Shown here in pieces: positions 1,939-33,659 of a stretch of DNA of 33,659 nucleotides; within the stretch, counting starts at the first letter, position 1; each line of letters opens with the position of its first letter. The stretch lies in contig CAIOKC010000005.1 in NCBI GenBank assembly GCA_903858755.1, positions 1 to 33,659 of the forward strand, given 5' to 3'. The notes beneath the pieces are model-generated. The model made no database searches and was not told the origin of the DNA. It was given only the letters and a program-made list of their open reading frames with translations. The position numbers were made by a program, and so were the translations under genes. This stretch comes from an uncultured bacterium (lineage in GTDB: Bacteria > Patescibacteriota > Minisyncoccia > Phycocordibacterales > UBA2100).

Positions 1939-2331
1939 CTAGAATACGCTCAGAGGCGATTGCTCGCCTCTGAAAATATCCGACTGAGACACTTTCAGAG
2001 ACAAGCAAAAATCACCGGAACTCAGGCAGGGACTCGACCAAGGTAAGCTCGTTTTTACGGAGCGAATCCTCGGACTAAGTTTCGACTCTCAGTCTGAGGT
2101 TTGACTTTCGTCATTCCCAAGACCGAGTACCCACCTAAACTACGGTGATTGCTGGGCGCTAGCGCCCCTGCCGCTCCACTACACGGTGTCATCGGTCGAA
2201 ACGAATGACACGAGCATCTAACAAAATCAAAGAACGTACTGACATTCTCGCAACTGCCCGAAAAAACACAATAGCCCAGACCTGTTGATAAGATAGTGCG
2301 AAACACCTCACCATTTCGTGTCAAGTCGCAA

Positions 2332-2487
2332 CTACTTTTGCGCTGAAAGATAATCGCCAAGAGAAACAACAAAGCCTACAAGCCCGACTATTATCAAAAT
2401 CCCAGGGCTTTCACCTGAATACAGTAAGAATCCGCTATAAACGGATAGTATCCCAAAAATAACCATTCCGAGATAAGACCTTTTCAT
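2332..2487 (-). CDS. Small two-TM membrane protein
   Basis: MKRSYLGMVIFGILSVYSGFLLYSGESPGILIIVGLVGFVVSLGDYLSAQK; TACAAT (minus, 2494-2499) lies 6 nt upstream of the ATG. Confidence 0.5.
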   Translation of the reverse strand: MKRSYLGMVIFGILSVYSGFLLYSGESPGILIIVGLVGFVVSLGDYLSAQK

Positions 2488-2562
2488 CGCTACATTGTAC
2501 ACCGGATCGCTGTTAAGTACCACGTGATGGAATAGGTGTTGATAATAATCCCCCCAGTCCCC

Positions 2563-2934
2563 CTAGTGATCCTCTTCCTTGCCGCCGGAATTCCGGATAA
2601 GGAAGATGAGCGCCCATAGGGCAAGCGCGACGCCCGCTCCAGCGGCTATGTACGTCGCGACCGCGGGGTGCGCTTGCAGGAATTGGACGATGGCAAGGAC
2701 GACGACGAGGGTGAAGAGGATGGCAGGGGTCCACGACATCACGTGTATCGCCTCATCGCGCGGACCCGGCCATACGCCAAGGCGGGTCACCCACATCACG
2801 AATCCCGTGCCGTATGCGAGGATCGCAGCGACGAGCATAAGTCCGACGAATATATTGAAAAGCCCCACGATCTGCGTGATGAAGACCGAGCCGCTGCTCG
2901 CTGCTCCCACTCCGGCGACAAGTGCGTCAGGCAT
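2563..2934 (-). CDS. Hypothetical multi-TM membrane protein in pilin-like operon
   Basis: 123 aa with three to four hydrophobic segments; directly downstream of 2940-3317. Confidence 0.75.
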   Translation of the reverse strand: MPDALVAGVGAASSGSVFITQIVGLFNIFVGLMLVAAILAYGTGFVMWVTRLGVWPGPRDEAIHVMSWTPAILFTLVVVLAIVQFLQAHPAVATYIAAGAGVALALWALIFLIRNSGGKEEDH

Positions 2935-2939
2935 ACAGG

Positions 2940-3317
2940 CTACTCATTGAACTGCGGCGGGAGAAATGGCTCTTGCTGCACCGGCGCTCCGCCGCCCCCT
3001 CCACTATACAGATTGGAACCGAAAAGGGTATTTTGCAAAAGCTTCAAGATGCCCCAGATCGAGACCATGAGGAATATTACGAGGAGTCCCCAGAAGAAGT
3101 ACTGGCGAAGCTTCTCCCCGCCCTCTTCGCTGAATTTCAGGATGTTGGTCGAAATACCATAAAAATAGACGACGATGCCCAGCACGATAAGGACGATGGT
3201 CGCGTTGTTGAGGATGAGCACGATGAGATCAGCAAGCTCGCTGAAATCGCGCGGCGCGGCGAGTGCCATCGCCGGAGCGAGCGCGGCGAAGAGCGGCAAG
3301 AAACGAGCGTAGCGCAT
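2940..3317 (-). CDS. Small pilin-like membrane protein (TrbC/VirB2-style)
   Basis: Signal-like N-terminus, IFLMVSIWGILKLLQNTLFG motif, Gly-rich tail. Confidence 0.78.
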   Translation of the reverse strand: MRYARFLPLFAALAPAMALAAPRDFSELADLIVLILNNATIVLIVLGIVVYFYGISTNILKFSEEGGEKLRQYFFWGLLVIFLMVSIWGILKLLQNTLFGSNLYSGGGGGAPVQQEPFLPPQFNE

Positions 3318-3318
3318 A

Positions 3319-3666
3319 CTAGCTGATGAGCTGAGAGACCGTGCCGCCGATAAGCGTCGCGATGACCCACGCGCCGAGGATGAGGAGCGCGCCGATGATG
3401 ACGTAGACGAAATTCTTCTTCGCTTCGCTCAGCTTCCCCTCGTTGCCTCGCGCGAAGACAAACATAAAACCCGCGATTACGATAAAAAGCGTAATGATAG
3501 GGAGCGCGACAATGACGAGGACCTTGAGCGCTCCTGCGATGAAATCCGTCACCGACTGCGAGGTCAGCGGATTCTGCAATCCTTGCGCATGCGTCGGGCT
3601 CGCGCTCGCCCAAAGCGCGATCGCTGGGGTCATTGCCGTGAATGCTGTGCGCAGACGCCTGATCAT
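3319..3666 (-). CDS. TrbC/VirB2-like pilin protein
   Basis: Signal peptide (..ASASPTHAQG) and two hydrophobic helices LVIVALPIITLFIVIAGFMFVFARG..FVYVIIGALLILGAWVIATLI; ATGA overlap with the upstream gene. Confidence 0.78.
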   Translation of the reverse strand: MIRRLRTAFTAMTPAIALWASASPTHAQGLQNPLTSQSVTDFIAGALKVLVIVALPIITLFIVIAGFMFVFARGNEGKLSEAKKNFVYVIIGALLILGAWVIATLIGGTVSQLIS

Positions 3667-5003
3667 AGACCGAGTGTATTGCCGAGCTGCTGATCGGCGC
3701 GCTGCACGGCTTGAGCCACCAACTGCGCGCCGCTCGCCACGCTTTCAATCATACCGCGGAAGATTTCCGCTGTCGCCTCGGGATCCGGATCGATCCAGGA
3801 GCGCGCTGCGATCGCCGATGATGTGACGACCTCATCGCGCCCCATTGCGACCCCCAAGCCCGTGAAGGCGATACTGCCGGGATTCGGGAGCGCGCCTTGC
3901 GATACGTCGAGACGAGCCGACGGAAGACCGAGCGCGGTAGAGAGATCTCTGGATATACCGGTCGCGCCGAGGAGGAAAGCCACCTGCAATGCGGCGCTCG
4001 GATTTTTCCCCGCTTTTGAAGCCGCGAGCGCGTAGACGCGAGCGGTCGTCATGGAATTCGGCTTCGAGCGTATCTGGGGAAGCGGCGCCATGGCGAAATT
4101 CAGATTTGGGTTCGACCGCTCGATGAGCGACTCTTCGCTCGCATACCCCACATAGAGCGCCACGTCCCCCGCAGCAAATGCTTTTTGCGATTTCGGAAGC
4201 GAGCGGTTCCACGAGTAGTCGTCTTTCGAGGGGTCGGCAAACTCCGTGTAAAAGCGGAGTGCGGATTCGGTCGGCTGCGTCACGCCCGCCACTTTCGATA
4301 CTAATGCGGGTATCAGGCGCCCCGCGCCGTCGTGTGCAGTGATCGATCCCCCCGCCTGGAGGATAAGGATCGCGAGGATGTCCTTGGCATTGTCGACATT
4401 TTGGTATTCACCGAACGCGACGGCGCTCTTCACGATTCCTCCCGTATCACTTTTCTTGCTCACCTTCTGCGCAATGCCCATGAGCTGATCCCAGTATTGC
4501 GGAGGCTGCGAGAATCCGGCAGAAGCAAGCATGTCTTTGTTCCAGTAGAGCACGAGCGGGTCGGCGACGATCGGAATGCCAAGGATCCCTCCCTGTCCGA
4601 CGAAAGGAGAAGACGCGCCGATAAACGTGTTTTCAAACTGCGATTGCGAAAGTGCAGAGAATTGGATGATCGCCGCCTTGCCTGCATTTTTCGCGGCATA
4701 CTCCTGTCGTATCAAGAAAAGGTCTGGACCAGTGCCGCTTGCGAGCGCATTCGTGAGAAGCTGCTCGTACGTCGCGGAGTCCTTCTGTTCGTACGACACC
4801 TGCGAGAGCGAGGCGTCTTTTTCCGCCGCCTGCCGGATGACGGCGGTAATCGCCGTCTGGTCGAGCGTGCCCCATATCTTCACGGGACCGATAGTACTGG
4901 AAGCGCCACCGCCGACTGCGAGCGCAAAGACAAGTATGCCTACGATCGCAAAAGCGCCGAAGACGACGAGCAAGATTATCTGAAACATCGAGAGTTTCCT
5001 CAT
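3663..5003 (-). CDS. Extracellular solute-binding protein (family 1-like)
   Basis: 446 aa; N-terminal TM, ITAVIRQAAEKD, GTGPDLFLIRQEYAAKN, PIVADPLVLYWNKDMLASAGFSQPPQYWDQLM, and AFAAGDVALYVGY. Confidence 0.85.
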   Translation of the reverse strand: MRKLSMFQIILLVVFGAFAIVGILVFALAVGGGASSTIGPVKIWGTLDQTAITAVIRQAAEKDASLSQVSYEQKDSATYEQLLTNALASGTGPDLFLIRQEYAAKNAGKAAIIQFSALSQSQFENTFIGASSPFVGQGGILGIPIVADPLVLYWNKDMLASAGFSQPPQYWDQLMGIAQKVSKKSDTGGIVKSAVAFGEYQNVDNAKDILAILILQAGGSITAHDGAGRLIPALVSKVAGVTQPTESALRFYTEFADPSKDDYSWNRSLPKSQKAFAAGDVALYVGYASEESLIERSNPNLNFAMAPLPQIRSKPNSMTTARVYALAASKAGKNPSAALQVAFLLGATGISRDLSTALGLPSARLDVSQGALPNPGSIAFTGLGVAMGRDEVVTSSAIAARSWIDPDPEATAEIFRGMIESVASGAQLVAQAVQRADQQLGNTLGL

Positions 5004-21146: not shown

Positions 21147-21974
21147 TCACAGCGCTTTTGTAATAGCGCCACGGAGTTCTTGCGCCTCTTTGCGTGCTGC
21201 CTCGGCAAAATCATCTCCACTCGAAGAGAAGATGACCGAGCGCGACGCGCAGATGATCATGCCGCGCCCGCGGCTGTCTTTCGCCGCCGCGACGGTCTTT
21301 CGGAGATCTCCCCCCTGGGCGCCGATGCCGGGGATAAGTATCGGCATGTCGCCGACGATTCTCCGAACCTCCGCGAGCTCGTCGACGTGAGTTGCACCTG
21401 CCATCACGAGACAGTTCCCATGCTCATTCCATTCGTCGACGACGTGCCGCGCGACGACCGCGTAGAGCGGCTCTCCGTCGACCAAGAGCGCCTGGAATTC
21501 GCCTGAGCCCTCGTTGGACGAACGCACAAGGACAATGATCCCTTTTTCTCTCCGAGCGAGGAACGGGGCAAGGGCGTCCCTCCCGAAATACGGATGTACC
21601 GTAATCGCGTCTGCGCCAAGACGGTCGAACGCGGAAACGACGTAGCCGTTGTTCGTGTTGCCGATATCCGCGCGTTTTGAGTCGAGGACGACGACCACAT
21701 CGGGCGCAGCGTCATTGATATACGAAATGGTGTCGCGGAGCGCACGCCACCCGTCTTCCCCGTGCGCCTCATAGAACGCCGAGTTCGGCTTGTAGCCACA
21801 CACGAGATCTTTCGTCGCGTCGACGACCGCCGTATTGAAAGCGAGAATCCCTTCGTACACCCCCTTGCTGCGCAAAGACGCCGGAATCTTCTCAAAATCA
21901 GTATCGAGACCTACGCACAGGAAATTACCCTTGTCCCACTCCGCTTCAAGAAGTTGCCTGAAATCGCGGTTCAT
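21147..21974 (-). CDS. pyrF: Orotidine 5'-phosphate decarboxylase (type 2)
   Basis: FLCVGLDTDFEKIP, YKPNSAFYEAHGEDGWRAL, VVLDSKRADIGNTN, VHPYFGRDALAPF. Confidence 0.94.
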   Translation of the reverse strand: MNRDFRQLLEAEWDKGNFLCVGLDTDFEKIPASLRSKGVYEGILAFNTAVVDATKDLVCGYKPNSAFYEAHGEDGWRALRDTISYINDAAPDVVVVLDSKRADIGNTNNGYVVSAFDRLGADAITVHPYFGRDALAPFLARREKGIIVLVRSSNEGSGEFQALLVDGEPLYAVVARHVVDEWNEHGNCLVMAGATHVDELAEVRRIVGDMPILIPGIGAQGGDLRKTVAAAKDSRGRGMIICASRSVIFSSSGDDFAEAARKEAQELRGAITKAL

Positions 21975-21998
21975 TGCCGACCATACTAGCATGAGAGA

Positions 21999-22026
21999 AG
22001 CCGGCGGACCCTGAGGTCCGCCGGCT
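21999..22026 (-). terminator. Strong hairpin (possible terminator for the 22053-22208 gene)
   Basis: AGCCGGCGGACC CTGA GGTCCGCCGGCT, 12-bp perfect stem; no good T-tract. Confidence 0.5.
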
Positions 22027-22052
22027 CGATATCCACCGACTGCGGCGAAATG

Positions 22053-22208
22053 CTACCAACGCCAACCGTTGGCTTCGTGCTTGCCCGGATGAATCTTCTT
22101 CTTGGGCGGGACTTCGGGCTTGAGCGGCGGTTTCGGTGTCTCTTTCCGATCCGTATCCGGACGCGAAGATTGTGAAGATCCCTTGGGATCGCTGGTTTGT
22201 TTGCCCAT
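22053..22208 (-). CDS. Small Pro/Lys-rich hydrophilic protein (51 aa)
   Basis: MGKQTSDPKGSSQSSRPDTDRKETPKPPLKPEVPPKKKIHPGKHEANGWRW; GGAGG 8 nt upstream of ATG 22208 (in-frame ATG at 22307 also possible). Confidence 0.6.
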   Translation of the reverse strand: MGKQTSDPKGSSQSSRPDTDRKETPKPPLKPEVPPKKKIHPGKHEANGWRW

Positions 22209-22337
22209 CGTATGACCTCCGGTTTGGGAATAGTAGCTACAGAAGATAATTCCTCTGTAGCATAGTATCCCCAAAGCATGTAGGTCGGCAAATTTCCATA
22301 CACCCATCCCTCCTCAAAGAACCGAAAGAACTCAAAC

Positions 22338-22366
22338 AAAAACCTCCGCTTGTCGCGGAGGTTTTT
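22338..22366 (-). terminator. Intrinsic terminator hairpin, part of putative attenuator
   Basis: Minus strand AAAAACCTCCGC GACAA GCGGAGGTTTTT (12-bp stem with T run). Confidence 0.85.
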
Positions 22367-22406
22367 GTGTTTGTTTCGTGTGATTATGCAAAACAAACGC
22401 CTCCGC
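22355..22406 (-). promoter_or_regulatory. Putative antiterminator hairpin, mutually exclusive with terminator 22338-22366
   Basis: Minus strand GCGGAGG-C-GTTTGTTT-[TGCATAATCACACG]-AAACAAAC-ACAAAAA-CCTCCGC; the CCTCCGC arm is shared with the terminator. Confidence 0.6.
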
Positions 22407-22452
22407 AAGCGGTGATCATCATCTGCATCATCATCGCGGACACATGCTGCAT
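22384..22452 (-). CDS. Putative 22-aa Met-rich leader peptide MQHVSAMMMQMMITACGGVCFA
   Basis: ATG 9 nt after TAGAGT -10; the ORF ends in the antiterminator loop; too short for the ORF track. Confidence 0.5.
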   Translation of the reverse strand: MQHVSAMMMQMMITACGGVCFA

Positions 22453-22461
22453 AACAGATCC

Positions 22462-22489
22462 ACTCTATCGCGCTACCCCATTCTGTCAA
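22462..22489 (-). promoter_or_regulatory. Promoter TTGACA-N16-TAGAGT (minus) upstream of leader ORF
   Basis: -35 at 22484-22489, -10 at 22462-22467. Confidence 0.6.
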
Positions 22490-22513
22490 CACGCTGTACG
22501 GGATCGCCACATA

Positions 22514-22545
22514 TGTTTATCTCGACCTATAGGTATAGATAAACA
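22514..22545. repeat. Imperfect 32-bp dyad TGTTTATCTcgACCTATAGGTatAGATAAACA
   Basis: Nine outer plus five inner base pairs around two mismatches; intergenic. Confidence 0.6.
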
Positions 22546-22622
22546 ATATCTGTAAACAACGAGGGATACATGCTCTCAAGCGCTGATCGTTGATGACTCT
22601 ACGAATTCAAAATCTTAAGCTG

Positions 22623-22694
22623 TGACCCTATCGGGAATCGAACCCGAGTTAACAGCTTGAAAAGCTGCTGTCCTAACCACTAGACGATAGGGCC
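22623..22694 (-). tRNA. tRNA-Glu (UUC)
   Basis: GGCCCTATCGTCTAGTGGTTAGGACAGCAGCTTTTCAAGCTGTTAACTCGGGTTCGATTCCCGATAGGGTCA, cloverleaf by eye; CCA not encoded. Confidence 0.95.
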
Positions 22695-22816
22695 TTGCGC
22701 AGCAATATATCGTATTTTCTATGAACTCGAAAGTGTGGTACGTTGTCTTTGGCTGGATCGTTAGCGCGCATGCCGCAGATGCAACGTGCGCGGGTGGATT
22801 TTCTAATCGCCCGAAT

Positions 22817-31408: not shown

Positions 31409-32326
31409 TTACTCCCACGAGATTGTCACCGATCCGCTCGAACCGCTTGCGCCGGAGCTACATCCGGCTCCGCCTCCGCCTCCGGCGCCCACCGCAATCG
31501 CCACTTGGGAGCCGATCGTGAGAGAGCTCGAGCTATACGTTTTTGCCGATGCGCCGCCCGCGCCGCCATTTCCTCCGCGATACCTCCCCCATACGCCGCC
31601 CGCGCCGCCCGAAGATCCGCCACCGGTAGTATTGGTGTCGCCCCCCGCTGCGCTTCCGGCAGCACCGTTTGATCCATTCCACGAACCACCGCCGCCACCG
31701 CTTCCTCCGTACCCGAATACCGAGCCTCCGAAGCTGCTCGAGCCACCCGAGGCGCCTGAATCACCCGGCAACATCGTGCGCCCCGGGCATTTCGGACTTC
31801 CGCCTCCACCGCCGCCCGCGCCGCTTACGCTCACGCTCAAAGTATTAAATGCAGGGACGACAAACGTGTACGCGCCCGGCGTCGTGTAGGACTGGCTCCC
31901 CGGCACAACCGCCCCCGGGAGAAGCGATACCCACGCAGTGCCATCGCAGTACTCCGGCTCTCCGATTGCTTCGACGTATCGGATCGCACCCTCGATTGCT
32001 CCGGTGCACGACTCTCCGGAATACCCCGGTCGCATGGCGCCTCCCACATCGAGTGCGACGATTGGATTCTCCACGCGTATGCCAAGGCGCTCTTCCACAT
32101 ACCATCCTCCAAACACGGCAAGCGCATTGAGCGAGATGCCGCCGTCTTTCACCTGATCGGTGCTGCCAGCATTGATCGGAGCGGAAAGCGTGCCTCCGGG
32201 AGCAGACTCGATCGGCGCGCTCCACGCGTCCAAGAGCCCCGCCGCCCCGAGAGCCACGACCAGTATCGATACAAAGAGCGCTGCTCGAGCAGCCGGCGAT
32301 CCAATGCGTAAGGTGATATGACTCAT
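31409..32326 (-). CDS. Secreted glycine-rich surface protein with pilin-like or fiber-like N-terminal module
   Basis: N-terminal TM; LSAPINAGSTDQVKDGGISLNALAVFGGWYVEERLGI; C-terminal YTTPGAYTFVVPAFNTLSVSVSGAGGGGGG... poly-Gly domain. Confidence 0.8.
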   Translation of the reverse strand: MSHITLRIGSPAARAALFVSILVVALGAAGLLDAWSAPIESAPGGTLSAPINAGSTDQVKDGGISLNALAVFGGWYVEERLGIRVENPIVALDVGGAMRPGYSGESCTGAIEGAIRYVEAIGEPEYCDGTAWVSLLPGAVVPGSQSYTTPGAYTFVVPAFNTLSVSVSGAGGGGGGSPKCPGRTMLPGDSGASGGSSSFGGSVFGYGGSGGGGGSWNGSNGAAGSAAGGDTNTTGGGSSGGAGGVWGRYRGGNGGAGGASAKTYSSSSLTIGSQVAIAVGAGGGGGAGCSSGASGSSGSVTISWE

Positions 32327-32336
32327 CGTACAGCGG

Positions 32337-32726
32337 CTAAGATGTCGGAGACCAGCTAGTCCCATTGCAGTACTCGACCTTTTTCGTCGAGCTGTTGTAT
32401 CTGAGCGCGCCTTCCGTTATCGCCTGACACACTTCCCCGCCGTTGCCAAGGCGGATGGTGCCGGCGACATCGAGGGTCAGCGCGGGGCTCGCATATCCGA
32501 CACCAAGATCGTCTTCGACATAACCGCTGCCGAATACCGCAAGCGCGTTGACGGAAAGCCCCGCGTCCTTCACCTGATCCGTCGTGCCGATATTGATGGG
32601 CGCAGGGACGTTGCCGGCAGGCGCGGTCGCCGTAGGACCGCTCCACGCGGAGAGGAGCGACGCGAAGAGCAAGCACGCGGCGAGGACAAGCGCTATGCCT
32701 ACATGCTGTTTGAATGAAAGGGTCAT
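32337..32726 (-). CDS. Short paralog of the neighbouring surface protein, lacking the Gly-rich domain
   Basis: MTLSFKQHVGIALVLAACLLFASLLSAWSGPTATAPAGNVPAPINIGTTDQVKDAGLSVNALAVFGSGYVEDDLGVGY..CNGTSW. Confidence 0.8.
   Translation of the reverse strand: MTLSFKQHVGIALVLAACLLFASLLSAWSGPTATAPAGNVPAPINIGTTDQVKDAGLSVNALAVFGSGYVEDDLGVGYASPALTLDVAGTIRLGNGGEVCQAITEGALRYNSSTKKVEYCNGTSWSPTS
32563..32689. repeat. Direct repeat copy 1 (127 bp identical to 33533-33659)
   Basis: Base-for-base identity at an offset of 970, running to the window end. Confidence 0.9.
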
Positions 32727-32733
32727 ACGCTTT

Positions 32734-33659
32734 CTACTCCCAGGTGATATTGACCTGCCCACGAGCACCAGCGCCGCCAGACGTCTGACCAGTATCGGCA
32801 GTGGTGCCACCTGCGCCGCCACTTCCCACGACGACCGTGATGGTACTACCCGAGGTGAGCTGCCCCGCGCTGTATGTCTTGATCACATGTGCGCCGCCTC
32901 CGCCGCCGCCTGAGCTGCAATCTGCGCACGTCGCCGCTGCTCCGCCACCACCCGGCACGCCCCCCGGAGCCATACCCGTCGCCCCTCCATTGCCGCCGCT
33001 CGGCGAATTGCCGCCGACCCCCTGTGTGTTTCCCGCCGTTCCGTTTTGATTGCTCGACCCGCCGCTCGCGATGCCGCCCGCACCACCCTGCGGCGGCTGG
33101 AAACCTCCTTGTCCCGCGCCGCCTCCGCCAGCCGACACCGAAGAATTGAATGTCGATGCGGTGCCGGAGCCGCCAGCATGATGATATCCCGTGCCCCCTC
33201 CGCCGCCGCCCCACATCTCCACCGTGAGTGTCGAAGAATAGCTTGGCACGGTGAAAGTGTACGTGCCGGGAATCGTGTAGAGCGTCGAACCGGAGGACGC
33301 AGAACCTCCTCCGAAAGCTGACCATTCAGTCCCGTTGCAGAATTCCATCTCCTTCGATCCGCTGTTGTAGCGTATCGAGCCTTCGGTAATCGACTGGCAT
33401 GTCTCGCCGCCGTTTGCGATGCGGAGGGTGCCGGCGACATCGAGTGCGACGATGGGGCTCGTGCGTCCGATGCCGAGTTTGTTTTCGATATACTGAGAAC
33501 CGAAGACGGCGAGTGAATTGACGGAGATGCCGGCGTCCTTCACCTGATCCGTCGTGCCGATATTGATGGGCGCAGGGACGTTGCCGGCAGGCGCGGTCGC
33601 CGTAGGACCGCTCCACGCGGAGAGGAGCGACGCGAAGAGCAAGCACGCGGCGAGGACAA
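32734..33659 (-). CDS. Glycine-rich surface protein (N-terminus truncated by window edge)
   Basis: ..LLFASLLSAWSGPTATAPAGNVPAPINIGTTDQVKDAGISVNSLAVFGSQYIENKLGIG..TIPGTYTFTVPSYSSTLTVEMWGGGGGG... frame open at right edge. Confidence 0.8.
   Translation of the reverse strand, partial: VLAACLLFASLLSAWSGPTATAPAGNVPAPINIGTTDQVKDAGISVNSLAVFGSQYIENKLGIGRTSPIVALDVAGTLRIANGGETCQSITEGSIRYNSGSKEMEFCNGTEWSAFGGGSASSGSTLYTIPGTYTFTVPSYSSTLTVEMWGGGGGGTGYHHAGGSGTASTFNSSVSAGGGGAGQGGFQPPQGGAGGIASGGSSNQNGTAGNTQGVGGNSPSGGNGGATGMAPGGVPGGGGAAATCADCSSGGGGGGAHVIKTYSAGQLTSGSTITVVVGSGGAGGTTADTGQTSGGAGARGQVNITWE
33533..33659. repeat. Direct repeat copy 2
   Basis: Identical to 32563-32689; may extend beyond the window. 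Confidence 0.9.

Follow-up and report, generated by a model that had tools for sequence, protein, structure and literature searches.

The minus strand of a patescibacterial contig carries, within the window (the whole 33,659-nt stretch of DNA that was analysed), a short methionine-rich ORF between a promoter and an intrinsic terminator, which raises the question of whether this arrangement measures methionine, is a small gene in its own right or is fortuitous. Very probably, it is a transcription attenuator that works through the ribosome and senses methionine and, on the best reading of the sequence, this Met-tRNA-sensing attenuator would control the 51-aa orphan gene that follows. The elements concerned are listed below.

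22462..22489, minus strand: promoter TTGACA-N16-TAGAGT, with the -35 element TTGACA at 22489-22484 and the -10 element TAGAGT at 22467-22462
22433..22455, minus strand: segment 1, the 5'-terminal part of the ORF with its AUG, predicted to pair with segment 2 when the ribosome is absent
22384..22452, minus strand: leader ORF of 22 codons, MQHVSAMMMQMMITACGGVCFA, its TAA ending at 22384, with homologous ORFs in relatives
22417..22434, minus strand: control codons ATG ATG ATG CAG ATG ATG, a run conserved in relatives
22384..22407, minus strand: segment 2, the ORF end TGCGGAGGCGTTTGTTTTGCATAA, identified by permutation tests and folding
22355..22376, minus strand: segment 3, AAACAAAC-ACAAAAA-CCTCCGC, partner of segment 2 in the antiterminator and also 5' arm of the terminator
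22338..22366, minus strand: intrinsic terminator (3:4) with a perfect 12-bp stem, GACAA loop and T tract, identified by folding and covariation
22314..22330, minus strand: TTCTTTCGGTTCTTTGA repeat 3' of the terminator, common to other attenuators, from a genome motif search
22223..22275, minus strand: long hairpin that immediately precedes the downstream gene's SD, from folding
22053..22208, minus strand: 51-aa orphan ORF with an SD, the presumed regulated gene, from ORF translation
22000..22025, minus strand: GC-rich hairpin with a tail of TTCTCT, lying after the orphan and before pyrF, the probable end of the unit, from the sequence and with counterparts in relatives

The promoter, the 9-nt gap, the 22-codon ORF and the Met run are all present on the minus strand where the earlier note had placed them. 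The ATG is at 22452, 9 nt past TAGAGT, and a pattern check found TTGACA-N16-TAGAGT to be the sole promoter match within 21900-22700. Most relatives retain the pattern TTGAC[A/G]-N16..18-TANNNT-N6..9-ATG and, because the spacing from the -10 element to the ATG is 6-9 nt across leaders, the leader mRNA probably begins at or near the AUG, i.e. it would be leaderless. Folding likewise recovered, at the expected positions, both the perfect 12-bp terminator and the competing antiterminator, each of which forms as a conformer of its own. In the antiterminator, GCGGAGGCGTTTGTTT pairs with AAACAAACACAAAAACCTCCGC (the strands being the ORF end GCGGAGGCGTTTGTTTTG and AAACAAAC...CCTCCGC), and the nascent segment folds in this way at -21.9 kcal/mol. 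The terminator, AAAAACCTCCGC-GACAA-GCGGAGGTTTTT at 22366-22338, has a stability of -18.8 kcal/mol (z -6.5) as an isolated stem, which two extra pairs raise to -23.1. A further pairing, absent from the earlier note, joins the ORF start (22455-22433) to the ORF end, and the ribosome-free leader of the window folds as this 1:2 structure plus the terminator (z -5.9). When the entire 752-kb genome from which the window was taken was scanned mechanically for sites combining a promoter, a short ORF and a terminator with complementarity to the ORF end, four rows representing three sites were returned, with the window site far ahead. The leader arrangement is not due to chance.

These elements suggest a mechanism in which RNA polymerase would start at the leader AUG or next to it, followed by a ribosome. 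Were charged Met-tRNA scarce, the ribosome would stall in the Met run and cover segment 1, leaving segment 2 free to pair with segment 3, and the antiterminator so formed would allow transcription to continue into the 51-aa gene. Were methionine ample, a ribosome at the stop codon would cover segment 2, 3:4 would form and transcription would end. With no ribosome, the 5' end of the ORF would pair with its 3' end (1:2), leading again to 3:4. The scheme presumes that the leader is transcribed, that its translation is leaderless and coupled to transcription, that the system responds to methionine and that the target has a purpose in that response. The trp, his, leu and ilv attenuators of Enterobacteria have in common with this locus a short ORF with a control-codon run, the 1:2, 2:3 and 3:4 pairs and an intrinsic terminator; as in the trp/his type, the codon run is of one residue, the terminator lies past the ORF, the antiterminator is exclusive with it and the 1:2 pairing frees it. 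The present leader differs from the enterobacterial ones in that methionine is sensed, the start codon lies within segment 1, the mRNA is probably leaderless, the host belongs to the Patescibacteria and the presumed target is an orphan gene, not a biosynthetic operon.

Conservation in relatives was the ground on which the earlier note had proposed to judge the attenuator, and there the ORF, its Met run and the two stems are all kept. A DNA search of 60 relatives found three same-genus homologues, with the peptides MHVKAGAMMMDMMMTPAAEAFCLHT, MYSKAMMMAMMSSRAEVFCLTA and MQVYRTAMMMEMRPLGGSLLRTA. A covariance model built from six leaders was run on 52 genomes of the genus, and inspection of its full-length matches showed similarly built Met leaders in 14 genomes. 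A pattern search of 397 genomes of the order added four more, split between two other families: the Taylorbacteria genome G042 has one, and the remaining three come from the second family. The run itself is kept in homologous leaders, as the expected conservation of Met codons demanded.

The pairings were assessed on 32 leaders sorted by control codon, by comparing each leader's own partners with permuted ones in 20,000 permutations; the 1:2 pairing of the ORF start had first been suggested by the fold of the window and was tested on all leaders afterwards. For 2:3, between the ORF end and the terminator 5' arm, own partners gave -20.1 kcal/mol against -14.6 +/- 0.57 kcal/mol for permuted ones, with 0 of 20,000 permutations as good and likewise 0 of 20,000 inside codon class, and for 1:2, between the ORF start including the AUG and the ORF end, the values were -15.7 against -13.0 +/- 0.54 kcal/mol, with 0 of 20,000 as good overall and 3 of 20,000 inside codon class, all of these counts being no strict probabilities because the leaders share descent. 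The antiterminator as originally proposed, using the ORF end and exclusive with the terminator, is upheld by this locus-specific pairing. A local hairpin just 5' of segment 2 was rejected as the 1:2 element, being no better than permuted or shuffled controls. The covariation anticipated for both stems is borne out in part: among 15 aligned Met/Cys leaders it is strong for the terminator, whilst the antiterminator is 88% paired, compared with at most 56% in slid controls, and its columns hold few double changes.

Codon sensing of the trp/his type, as the earlier note had envisaged, gains support from sister leaders whose run fits the operon behind them. The repeated residue varies among leaders (Met, Cys, Val, Ile, Leu, Phe) and the RNA architecture stays constant. 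Val-run leaders of the same build lie directly 5' of acetolactate synthase (ilvB) in three genomes, an Ile-run leader lies upstream of threonine deaminase (ilvA) in one, and a Leu leader (...SLLGLLLTTSGGGSACL) lies directly 5' of leuA in the window's own genome. A search that started from leuA found a poly-Leu leader upstream of three of four other leuA genes, from different families of the order, with an evident terminator in at least two. Cognate operons thus stand behind Leu, Val and Ile leaders, whereas a link of the Met leaders to methionine metabolism may be seen in the SAM-hydrolase-like genes at four of them, the gene in the window being an orphan. The Val leaders 5' of ilvB are comparable to the ilvB leader attenuators of Actinobacteria, which have a uORF with branched-chain codons, an antiterminator and an intrinsic terminator (PMC1262725; Mtb ilvB1NC, PMC13236596).

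Some individual leaders deserve separate description. The Leu leader MTHKQTGLPKSIAKRLIGRTAEGSFSLLGLLLTTSGGGSACL is on the minus strand of L128 (G000:C26), just 5' of leuA (2152-3720), and its N-terminal part seems extended relative to its relatives by a small in-frame palindromic insertion. An aromatic leader, MSNGRMSSAAWYFFFFTSRGGVAASLL (WYFFFF), with a terminator starts at 4545 on the plus strand of the same locus, again in the window's own genome; it precedes a 164-aa orphan, towards which a prephenate-dehydrogenase-like gene converges on the other strand. An Ile leader (MHQARTISIIAIITPISGV; L088, G003:C16:13331-13485) lies ~1.5 kb 5' of a 16S rRNA gene that has the same orientation.

The range of residues also bears on other explanations of the locus. 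The first, which is unlikely, is an arrest peptide, whereby a nascent AMMMxMM(T/S/N)P chain together with Met, SAM or another ligand would stall the ribosome and the RNA switch would be unchanged. The AMMMxMM motif and the T/S/N, and often P, after it are well conserved, as would suit such a peptide; however, the residues flanking the run are variable, and the same RNA architecture with Cys, Val, Ile, Leu or Phe runs before matching operons is a prediction of codon sensing. Less probable still is a microprotein gene, Met/Cys/His-rich and e.g. metal-binding, that has a terminator of its own and only incidental complementarity. Met-rich peptides can bind metals, and promoter, ORF and terminator do make up a complete small gene. 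The earlier note had left metal sensing or a microprotein open, an option now disfavoured, as the repeated residue switches among loci whilst the RNA architecture stays, relatives do not retain the Cys and His, and both the ORF end with the terminator and the ORF start with the ORF end form locus-specific pairings. A metabolite riboswitch (e.g. for SAM) or a T-box, beside which the short ORF would be incidental, is highly improbable: alternative terminator/antiterminator pairing is common to those systems, but an Rfam scan of the window yielded only tRNAs at gathering scores, with no SAM riboswitch or T-box match, and the Met run ranks among the best conserved parts of the leader in relatives. 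SAM riboswitches and Met T-boxes resemble the present leader in controlling methionine/SAM genes via transcription termination, but in them the RNA by itself recognises SAM or uncharged tRNA, whereas the present leader contains a conserved ORF.

The Met attenuator is the preferred reading, against which are counted that Met starvation affects initiation too, that the target in the window is an orphan, that double changes in the antiterminator are few, that SAM-HAT homologues elsewhere have no leader and that MetE is missing from the Met-leader genomes tested. The expected SD-bearing 51-aa gene is confirmed at 22208-22053; it is the sole gene between the attenuator and the GC-rich hairpin (22025-22000), and a protein search of 60 relatives found no homologue. 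The neighbouring pyrF was rejected as the target, since a hairpin or terminator intervenes in the window and in relatives, and not every Met leader has pyrF nearby. Among genomes, the genes behind Met leaders encode short Pro/Lys-rich proteins, small Cys-containing proteins, ~120-aa proteins, and SAM-hydrolase-like and methyltransferase-like proteins, so that the sensor is better conserved than the genes it would control. The ~120-aa orphans with a similar C-terminal end occur behind Met/Cys leaders at L046, L052, L054, L056, L058 (three in tandem) and L060, and no Pfam match was found in the two that were scanned. The hairpin at 22223-22275, which is long, stable and interrupted by an internal loop, has similar counterparts in the interval from terminator to SD at many of the leader loci, including L044, L045, L046, L052 and L058.

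SAM hydrolases free methionine from SAM, an activity that would make sense under Met shortage. Genes with a SAM_HAT_C domain above the Pfam cut-off stand behind three Met leaders from two families (G018, G023 and G042), and the protein behind a fourth (G198) is weakly similar to SAM-HAT proteins; with no Pfam hit and a weak pairwise match, it was rejected as a proven SAM hydrolase. The G042 protein is modelled with a SAM-hydrolase fold (pLDDT 88.7), its best structural matches being the SAM hydrolase MJ1651, PH0463 and related chlorinases/fluorinases. Hydrolase activity is not assured, because the conserved APRNG-type motif differs from the DPGVG motif of characterised SAM hydrolases. A universal link between SAM-HAT genes and Met leaders was rejected, as five distant homologues have no leader. 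At L192, ~130 nt 5' of a SAM-HAT homologue, a short ORF MWKYRYSSLFPITR is followed by a terminator-like hairpin and is possibly another leader. In the ten Met-leader genomes tested, metK was present in all and MetE (C-terminal domain) in none, so no biosynthetic Met operon stands behind the leader.

Leader-peptide systems had been shown only in Proteobacteria and Actinobacteria before Firmicutes were added (PMC2965389, 2010). The earlier note knew of no such attenuator in this kind of genome, and in the open-access papers searched no report was found of leader-peptide attenuators in Patescibacteria/candidate phyla radiation, or of a Met-codon attenuator. For Actinobacteria, one study reports no conserved RNA structures upstream of methionine operons (PMC1262725). 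Mycobacteria have leaderless short ORFs of the poly-Cys type (Canestrari et al. 2020, cited in PMC13236596), which PMC13236596 describes as acting by translation attenuation and which lack a conserved terminator hairpin (PMC1262725). They resemble the present system in that a short ORF contains a run of the residue being sensed, and the spacing from the -10 element suggests that the mRNA here may likewise start at the AUG; they differ in that the window run is of Met, not Cys, although Cys runs occur in sister leaders. The attenuation principle is known, whilst methionine as the sensed residue and the patescibacterial setting appear new, a further new point being the location of the start codon within segment 1. 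On balance, it seems likely that Patescibacteria of this order use probably leaderless attenuators that share one architecture, with the start codon in 1:2, and differ in the residue of the codon run (Met, Leu, Val, Ile, Cys or Phe), of which the newly recognised Met type would switch on SAM-hydrolase-like enzymes and fast-changing orphans at Met shortage. If true, very small, mostly uncultured bacteria keep transcription-translation coupling and sense single amino acids, and their leaders would be readable markers by which the genes that follow Met, Cys or Phe leaders could be assigned to shortage of the respective amino acid.

Two minor features of the window complete the description. Tandem TCTTT-N2..6-TCTTTGA occurs at only two sites in the 752-kb genome, 22314-22330 of the window and the minus strand of L128, both directly 3' of an attenuator terminator (one Met, one Leu). 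A boxA function for the post-terminator TTCTTTGA was rejected, as rRNA leaders of the genus have TTTGAAAACTGAA-like sequences and only TTTGA is in common. Elsewhere, at 31409-33642 on the minus strand, three tandem paralogous ORFs share an APxNxGTTDQVKD...LAVFG region, with Gly-rich C-terminal parts in two of the three.
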